IMG/VR virus record: IMGVR_UViG_3300031857_001492
Coordinates: 1 to 22,664 of that record
Direction: 5' to 3' (one strand)
DNA length: 22,664 bases
From: a virus
Shown: positions 7,440-20,689 of the stretch, in pieces
Position numbering within the stretch: position 1 is the stretch's first letter
How the letters are laid out: every line of letters starts with the position of its first letter
Program-made: the position numbers and the translations under genes
The notes under the pieces: model-generated
What the model was told of the DNA's origin: nothing
Seen by the model: the letters and a program-made list of their open reading frames with translations, nothing else
Databases searched by the model: none

Positions 7440-8486
7440 ATGACATTTGATCCTGACAGCGTTACGCCATCACCTGACTTTGTTGACTACATTGCAAACA
7501 CGCACCGCGATGCGTTGCGGTTTGCAACGTTCTGGGCGCGATGGGGCGCCACCGAGGCCACCAAGGTTTTGCAGCCCCCTGCCAACACATGCCTGTTGCG
7601 CCAGGAAGGCGGTCCGCTGCGGCTGAAGATCTACCAGCAGGCGCTGGGCCAGGAGGTGGCCATCAACCTGGTGCCAATTCCTGCCGGCAGCTTTTTGATG
7701 GGCTCTCTTGAGGACGAGTCAGAGCGCTTCGACAATGAAGGTCCCCAGCACGATGTGACGCTGGGCGCCTTCTGGATGGCCCAAACGCCGATCACTCAGG
7801 CCCAGTGGCGGACGGTGGCGGGTTGGCCAAGGGTGGAGCGCGACCTAGAACCTGATCCCTCCAGGTTCAAGGGCGACCAGCGACCGGTAGAGCGGGTGAA
7901 CTGGCACGACGCGCAGGAGTTCTGCCAGCGCCTGAGCCAGCGCACGGGCCAGCGCTACGGGCTGCCGAGCGAAGCCCAGTGGGAATACGCCTGTCGGGCT
8001 GGCACTACCACACCGTTTCACTTTGGAGCCACGCTGACGCCGGGTCAGGCGTGTTTCAACAATGCGCAGGGGCCCGTCGATGTGGCCAGCTTTCCCGCCA
8101 ATGCCTGGGGCCTGCATGACATGCACGGCAATGTCTGGGAGTGGTGCCAAGACCAGTGGCACGGTTCTTACGAAGGGGCGCCAACGGATGGCAGCGCCTG
8201 GGAGGACAACAGCCTGGGGGAGTCCCAAGGCTGCTGCGCGGCGGGTCGTGGGGCAGCTACCCCGGGGACTGCCGCTCGGCCTACCGCTACGACAACCCCC
8301 CGGACTCCCGCTTCTTCATCTTCGGTTTCCGCGTCTGTTGCCTTTGATGATGTCCCAAGGCTGCTGCGCGGCGGGTCGTGGTACAACAGCCCCAGGTACT
8401 GCCGCTCGGCCTTCCGCGACATCAGCCTCCCGGGCAACCGCAACAACAACTTCGGTTTCCGCGTCTGTTGCCTCCCCCAGGACTAA
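7440..8486 (+). CDS. Formylglycine-generating-enzyme/C-type-lectin-fold protein, likely hypervariable retroelement target
   Basis: This 348-residue protein has the FGE-sulfatase (SUMF1-like) fold. Visible are V-P-I-P-A-G-S-F-L-M-G-S (78-89), E-G-P-Q-H-D-V-T-L (100-108), Q-T-P-I-T-Q-A-Q-W (115-123), R-P-V-E-R-V-N-W-H-D-A (148-158), L-P-S-E-A-Q-W-E-Y-A-C-R-A-G (175-188), H-G-N-V-W-E-W-C (229-236), then L-L-R-G-G-S-W and F-G-F-R-V-C-C-L at the end. Such folds are standard receptors for diversity-generating retroelements. The 3' end holds two copies of a variable-region-like segment 130 bp apart. Copy 1 is read out of frame (about residues 261-301, low-complexity Ala/Thr/Pro/Ser) and copy 2 is in frame. 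It probably binds ligands or cell surfaces rather than sulfatases. The start follows CAACAACACCC. Confidence 0.85.
   Translation: MTFDPDSVTPSPDFVDYIANTHRDALRFATFWARWGATEATKVLQPPANTCLLRQEGGPLRLKIYQQALGQEVAINLVPIPAGSFLMGSLEDESERFDNEGPQHDVTLGAFWMAQTPITQAQWRTVAGWPRVERDLEPDPSRFKGDQRPVERVNWHDAQEFCQRLSQRTGQRYGLPSEAQWEYACRAGTTTPFHFGATLTPGQACFNNAQGPVDVASFPANAWGLHDMHGNVWEWCQDQWHGSYEGAPTDGSAWEDNSLGESQGCCAAGRGAATPGTAARPTATTTPRTPASSSSVSASVAFDDVPRLLRGGSWYNSPRYCRSAFRDISLPGNRNNNFGFRVCCLPQD
8222..8343 (+). repeat. Variable-region-like segment, copy 1
   Basis: This 122-bp unit has a constant left end (30 bp, 8222-8251), a 69-bp variable core (8252-8320) and a constant right end (23 bp, 8321-8343). In the frame matching copy 2 it encodes R-L-L-R-G-G-S-W-G-S-Y-P-G-D-C-R-S-A-Y, ends F-G-F-R-V-C-C-L, and meets TGA immediately at 8345-8347. 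The long gene enters it in a different frame, after a run of five G at about 8216-8220. Comparison with copy 2 shows all differences at first or second codon positions. Confidence 0.8.
8352..8473 (+). repeat. Variable-region-like segment, copy 2
   Basis: Exactly 130 bp downstream of copy 1, with identical 30-bp and 23-bp ends. The core (8382-8450) differs from copy 1 at 21 of 69 positions, none of them a third codon position. At 17 of the 21, one copy has A. Copy 2 keeps several AAC codons (for example N-R-N-N-N before F-G-F-R-V). It is in frame with the long gene and forms its C-terminus, followed by P-Q-D and TAA. Confidence 0.8.
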
Positions 8487-19744: not shown

Positions 19745-19830
19745 GCATTGTGAAGCGGTCGGGCTGGATCCCGTTTGGCCGTAACGGACCGGCTACTATA
19801 TGGAGACCGGGGGAGAGCCCCGCTACCACC
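19745..19830 (+). promoter_or_regulatory. Phage promoter-leader, copy upstream of 19845
   Basis: TTGTGAAGC (19748-19756) lies 46 bp before TACTAT (19794-19799). The 21 bases at 19779-19799, beginning CCGTAACGG, are identical to 20626-20646. A stem-loop with CGGGG and CCCCG arms follows, then CTACCACCACC and ATG 19845. The equal spacing and identity to the second copy make a functional promoter likely. Confidence 0.7.
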
Positions 19831-20589: not shown

Positions 20590-20665
20590 ACAATCTGTAA
20601 AGCGTCCCACCCCATCCCTCCCAATCCGTAACGGACCGGCTACTATTTGAAAACAGGGCAAGCCT
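20590..20665 (+). promoter_or_regulatory. Phage promoter-leader, copy upstream of 20690
   Basis: CTGTAAAGC (20595-20603) lies 46 bp before TACTAT (20641-20646), exactly as in the 19745 copy. Bases 20626-20646 are identical to 19779-19799. A weaker, bulged stem-loop (CAGGG with CCTCTG) and ACCACCACC follow, then ATG 20690. The 25 bp between the box and CCGTAACGG are not conserved between the copies. Confidence 0.7.
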
Positions 20666-20689
20666 CTGACCACCACCGAACCGCCAGCC

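Follow-up and report, generated by a model that had tools for sequence, protein, structure and literature searches.

The window analysed here is a complete IMG/VR record of 22,664 bp. On its plus strand, the open reading frame at 7440..8486 codes for a 348-aa protein made up of a body, an off-frame repeat copy that serves as a linker and a second, in-frame copy, with the TAA stop codon of this frame-0 product at 8484-8486. The product matches the Pfam family FGE-sulfatase (PF03781, E 1.6e-47). An AlphaFold model of residues 71-348, based on an 80-sequence alignment, has a mean pLDDT of 83, and for this model Foldseek gave PvdO and formylglycine-generating enzymes as the best solved folds and placed the Treponema denticola variable protein (PDB 2y3c), a target of a diversity-generating retroelement (DGR), at rank 23. 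The family match and these structural matches bear out the FGE/C-type-lectin fold assigned by the original prediction. In the model of the frame-0 product, copy 2 completes the fold; the stretch encoded by off-frame copy 1 is of low confidence and likely disordered. Relatives of the protein are found in phages and cyanobacteria, the closest cellular ones being in freshwater picocyanobacteria. No terminase or portal genes were found beside the FGE gene in its gene neighbourhood.

The two copies lie in tandem at 8222-8343 (copy 1, variable region 1) and 8352-8473 (copy 2, variable region 2) on the plus strand. Each is 122 nt long, and no other direct repeat in the window comes close to this length. 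Copy 1 reads VPRLLRGGSWGSYPGDCRSAYRYDNPPDSRFFIFGFRVCCL in the -1 frame, and copy 2, in frame with the FGE gene, reads VPRLLRGGSWYNSPRYCRSAFRDISLPGNRNNNFGFRVCCL. The tandem copies and their 21 core differences are real as predicted, with a pairwise identity of 83%. The predicted identical end of 30 bp was also right, but the other end is 24 nt rather than 23 and the core between them 68 nt rather than 69. Every one of the 21 differing sites is a first or second codon position (frame GTC-CCA-AGG), and a recount found that 17 of them carry A in one of the two copies; both results agree with what had been claimed. A 10.4-kb contig from another sample (L021), 99.99% identical to the window, carries both copies; a random assembly error is therefore unlikely. 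Elsewhere in the window, a 52-nt repeat at 19779-19830 and 20626-20677 (75% identical, beginning CCGTAACGGACCGGCTACTAT) lies ahead of two small genes and is perhaps a shared regulatory element.

Comparison with a host template supports the DGR origin of this variation. When 27 phage variable regions were aligned with the template of the picocyanobacterial genome L136, all 25 A positions were variable as against 6 of the 83 other positions (Fisher p 3e-19, a nominal value since the copies are related). The identification of the copies as DGR-type variable regions in a lectin-fold protein is thus well supported, by this A-specific variation together with the PF03781 and 2y3c matches, as the original prediction had proposed. 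AAC-rich template repeats of a related type are present in the picocyanobacterial genomes L128, L136, L146 and L188, and reverse transcriptases in 11 of the 12 cyanobacterial genomes searched. By contrast with the host side, where these elements occur, the window and 33 related phage records, which may be fragments, gave no match to a reverse transcriptase (RVT_1), and no template repeat was seen in the window or the phage loci, in line with the earlier reading of the window. With no reverse transcriptase in the phage records, the FGE gene was filed as a DGR target and not as a complete DGR. Exact-pattern searches returned no template from IMG/VR and no phage-type template from 300 genomes of the host family. 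Phage-encoded DGR machinery was rejected as a candidate, there being neither RVT_1 nor template, and the viral contigs hold only distant reverse transcriptases.

Two host genomes, L198 and L230, contain remains of a phage-type DGR. In L198 (9179-10006, minus strand), a host reverse transcriptase frame is cut off after YLRYV, near the catalytic motif, and fused to the template end FRVCCLPQHPS; this DGR seems to have collapsed by deletion. In L230 (Synechococcus sp. Tobar12-5m-g), an AAC-rich template-like copy with a 6-nt deletion lies on the reverse strand around G035:C14:42926-43029, and no reverse transcriptase was recognised beside it. This relic differs from ten phage copies at 126 of 230 A cells and 77 of 790 other cells, mostly as fixed lineage differences. 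In view of the templates and reverse transcriptases of picocyanobacterial genomes and of these remains in L198 and L230, we infer that the phage gene is likely diversified in trans by a host-encoded DGR. The earlier suggestion that the machinery acts from elsewhere fits with the cyanobacterial reverse transcriptases, but no intact phage-type donor DGR was found in the host genomes searched. Between the phage genomes L008 and L020, copy 1 is identical and copy 2 different, which is only suggestive of ongoing diversification.

The pitch between the copies is 130 nt, i.e., 1 mod 3, so the copies sit in different reading frames, and the FGE frame is in register with copy 2 only. Upstream of copy 1, the copy-2 frame has 281 open codons and the copy-1 frame only 39. 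Frame 0 reads copy 1 one base off, as ESQGCCAAGRGAATPGTAARPTATTTPRTPASSSSVSASVAFDD, a linker rich in Ser, Pro, Thr and Ala. Translated in the -1 frame, copy 1 has GFRVCCL at its end, followed directly by a stop (TGA, 8345-8347). The same two-frame arrangement is present in L001, L002, L004, L006, L007 (two genes), L008, L012, L018, L020, L046 and L092, and in L014 when read by eye, with tandem-copy pitches of 124, 127 or 130 among the relatives; it is thus common to about a dozen other phage genomes. The original prediction had called a tandem duplication of the variable region unusual, which is right in general, but the duplication recurs within this phage group. It had missed that the gene is in register with copy 2 alone, and that the two-frame layout with its presumed slip site is conserved in other phages.

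The presumed -1 slip site is the heptamer G GGG GAG at 8216..8222 (plus strand), which is in phase with frame 0 and non-canonical. It lies in phase directly 5' of copy 1 in six phage genomes, namely the window, L001, L004, L006, L046 and L092. At the same position, L002, L005, L007 (twice), L008, L012, L014, L020 and L027 (five times) have G GGA AAG, and L018 has A AAA AAG. In E. coli, both of the latter heptamers are strongly shift-prone (PMC5009743); a literature search found no paper describing G GGG GAG as an established slip site. The spacer from the heptamer to the RGGSW motif is 5, 14, 17 or 20 nt and always 2 mod 3, and a scan of viral contigs that permitted spacers of 2-32 nt returned only 5, 17 and 20, besides one chance match. 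The candidate heptamer locus L097 was discarded as a chance match to the pattern. The genes with the conserved heptamer phase are related, so their phases are not independent observations. In single-copy in-frame genes, an in-phase X XXA AAG occurs within 60 nt in 2 of 131 cases, and from codon usage Leu-Gly-Lys is expected to be written as xxG GGA AAG in about 3% of cases.

Each of the 13 tandem genes tested has a stop in the -1 frame no more than a few codons past copy 1, and these stops are preserved with differing codons. In these genes the overlapping -1 frame is conserved with its own coding content (copy 1) and its stop. Resampling of synonymous codons with the amino acids fixed gave a product of stop chances of 1.2e-6 over the 13 genes, which are not independent, and the window alone has a chance probability of 0.79 of a -1 stop given its amino acids.

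Two elements near the heptamer are possible stimulators of frameshifting. One is a Shine-Dalgarno-like GGGAGG at 8200..8205 (plus strand), 10 nt upstream of the heptamer; most relatives have a purine-rich GGAGG-like run at a similar position, and the element may simply reflect codon choice. The other is a predicted RNA hairpin downstream of the heptamer (8228..8282, plus strand), formed by framework codons of the variable region, with a shuffle z of -0.7 in the window and mostly weak values of -0.4 to -3.1 in most relatives.

Other members of the family arrange the same parts differently. In L027, a single open frame 0 runs through the FGE body and five units, each of GGGAAAG, a variable region and a -1 stop, after which a sixth variable region follows that is itself in frame 0. 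Over the whole locus (L027:10576-11522), the single FGE body is followed by seven variable regions. One -1 shift could not reach the last of these, and the TGATATG ahead of it resembles a stop-start overlap that would supply an ATG of its own. L016 has a single in-frame variable region and a broken heptamer, GAGAAAG. L005 has, after an intact GGGAAAG, one variable region that lies in the -1 phase; it could be read only through frameshifting, unless two copies were merged in the assembly. Two or three same-frame variable regions, uninterrupted by stops, precede the FGE domain at L033:10016-10267, L034:6869-7273, L035:10166-10417 and L040:10016-10267, and L045:8159-10376 has several variable regions in apparently short, separate frames, some with very little upstream sequence. 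In a tree of FGE domains, genes with the frameshift arrangement are scattered over several positions among the single-copy ones, L018 and L027 on long branches among them. Within two clades GGGAAAG alternates with GGGGGAG; several deep forks are weakly supported. This distribution suggests repeated gain, loss or exchange of the frameshift arrangement.

Our interpretation, to which we assign a probability of roughly two in three, is that programmed -1 frameshifting selects between two hypervariable C-termini of one DGR target gene in this picocyanobacterial phage. Ribosomes that stay in frame 0 would turn copy 1 into a flexible linker of ~43 aa, translated off-frame, and end in copy 2, which would complete the lectin fold. 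A -1 slip at the heptamer just 5' of copy 1 would instead bring copy 1 into frame and lead to the stop right after it, yielding a product that shares the body but is shorter and carries a different hypervariable end. Both copies would presumably be rewritten by the host-encoded DGR in trans. Such a design has a built-in safeguard: an AAC codon of the template becomes NNC upon diversification, which one base on is read as NCN. All NCN codons specify Ser, Pro, Thr or Ala and none is a stop, so the copy-2 product stays intact however copy 1 is diversified. For the cyanophages as a group, a broader form of this idea has somewhat better than even odds in our judgement. Tandem DGR ends would act as frameshift-addressed cassettes, each with a slip site and a -1 stop, with the ratios of the products set by slippage, skipped cassettes serving as inert Ser/Pro/Thr/Ala linkers and diversification left to the host retroelement.

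The comparative support for the frameshift model is strong. Its main rival is that copy 1 is a silent remnant of duplication: only copy 2 would be expressed, the off-frame linker would be tolerated and the DGR would still rewrite copy 1. Conservation of copy 1 is no evidence of its translation, because a DGR can rewrite it. No case shows a stop in frame 0 within copy 1, as a silent copy would require; indels in the spacer must preserve frame 0 in any event, which explains part of the phase conservation, and the -1 stop of the window is, as given above, expected by chance. A silent copy nevertheless leaves unexplained why distant genes have in-phase, shift-prone heptamers 5' of copy 1, why L018 has the A AAA AAG variant, why L027 has five units, and why the stops are kept with different codons (synonymous null product 1.2e-6, over genes that are not independent). 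We therefore regard the silent copy as doubtful, though it retains an appreciable share of the probability.

The remaining explanations concern the run of Gs at the junction. That a frameshift, whether genuine or a sequencing error, has broken the gene, with one G lost from the run and copy 1 as the true gene end, gains some plausibility from the fact that one extra G gives LGGVPRLLRGGSW in frame in the window. But the junction site is reproduced in L021, and the same frame relation recurs with different junction sequences in the dozen or so other phage genomes, which makes a broken gene very improbable. Nearly as improbable is that copy 1 is made in the -1 frame through internal initiation or through transcriptional slippage on the G run. 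The window does offer five consecutive Gs and the 39 open codons upstream of copy 1, but an internal start would yield a lone variable region devoid of the lectin body, and transcriptional slippage does not account for GGGAAAG, the commonest form in the relatives, which is a slip site of ribosomes and not of polymerases.

The variable regions have clear counterparts in known systems. The Treponema denticola variable protein (2y3c), the targets of Thiohalocapsa PB-PSB1 (PMC10907252) and cyanobacterial DGRs (PMC7517822) share the fold, the RGGSW...GFRV framework and A-specific variation at AAC codons, and diversification in trans has been proposed for the Thiohalocapsa PB-PSB1 targets (PMC10907252). 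In known targets with several variable regions, the whole CLec domain is repeated in one frame or the regions belong to separate paralogous genes (PMC3521204, PMC10907252), whereas the window has two variable regions in different frames behind one lectin body. With phage -1 frameshifting as in lambda gpG/gpGT or in added Ig-like domains (PMC5009743), the window's group shares the X XXA AAG heptamer and, if the model holds, two C-termini per gene. It differs from the lambda type in that both outcomes would be versions of the same hypervariable domain, that units can be serial (L027) and that slippage is here predicted. Among the published open-access papers searched, DGR and ribosomal frameshifting co-occurred only in one on phage annotation for therapy.

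Among isolated cyanophages, gp062 of the Microcystis phages Ma-LMM01 and MaMV belongs to the same protein family and has a variable-region-like C-terminus; the gp062 gene examined has one in-frame variable region, unlike the two of the window. No sign of ongoing diversification was seen in MaMV, the variable region being identical among four isolates. The Ma-LMM01 gene (L209:8944-9774) is annotated as a 'kinase' despite its FGE/lectin-fold family and variable-region-like end, and phrog_18508 seems to carry the same misannotation in its PHROG label. DGR targets of this kind in other bacteria have been proposed as antigen sensors of conflict systems (PMC10907252), and for this reason the phage protein may serve in receptor binding, as a decoy or in anti-defence.

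If the frameshift model is true, targeted hypermutation and programmed frameshifting are joined in one gene, which would give these phages several independently diversified binding ends from a single coding sequence. It would also represent a coding design in which a hypervariable cassette does no harm when read in the other frame, and a case of phages using the DGR machinery of their hosts in trans.
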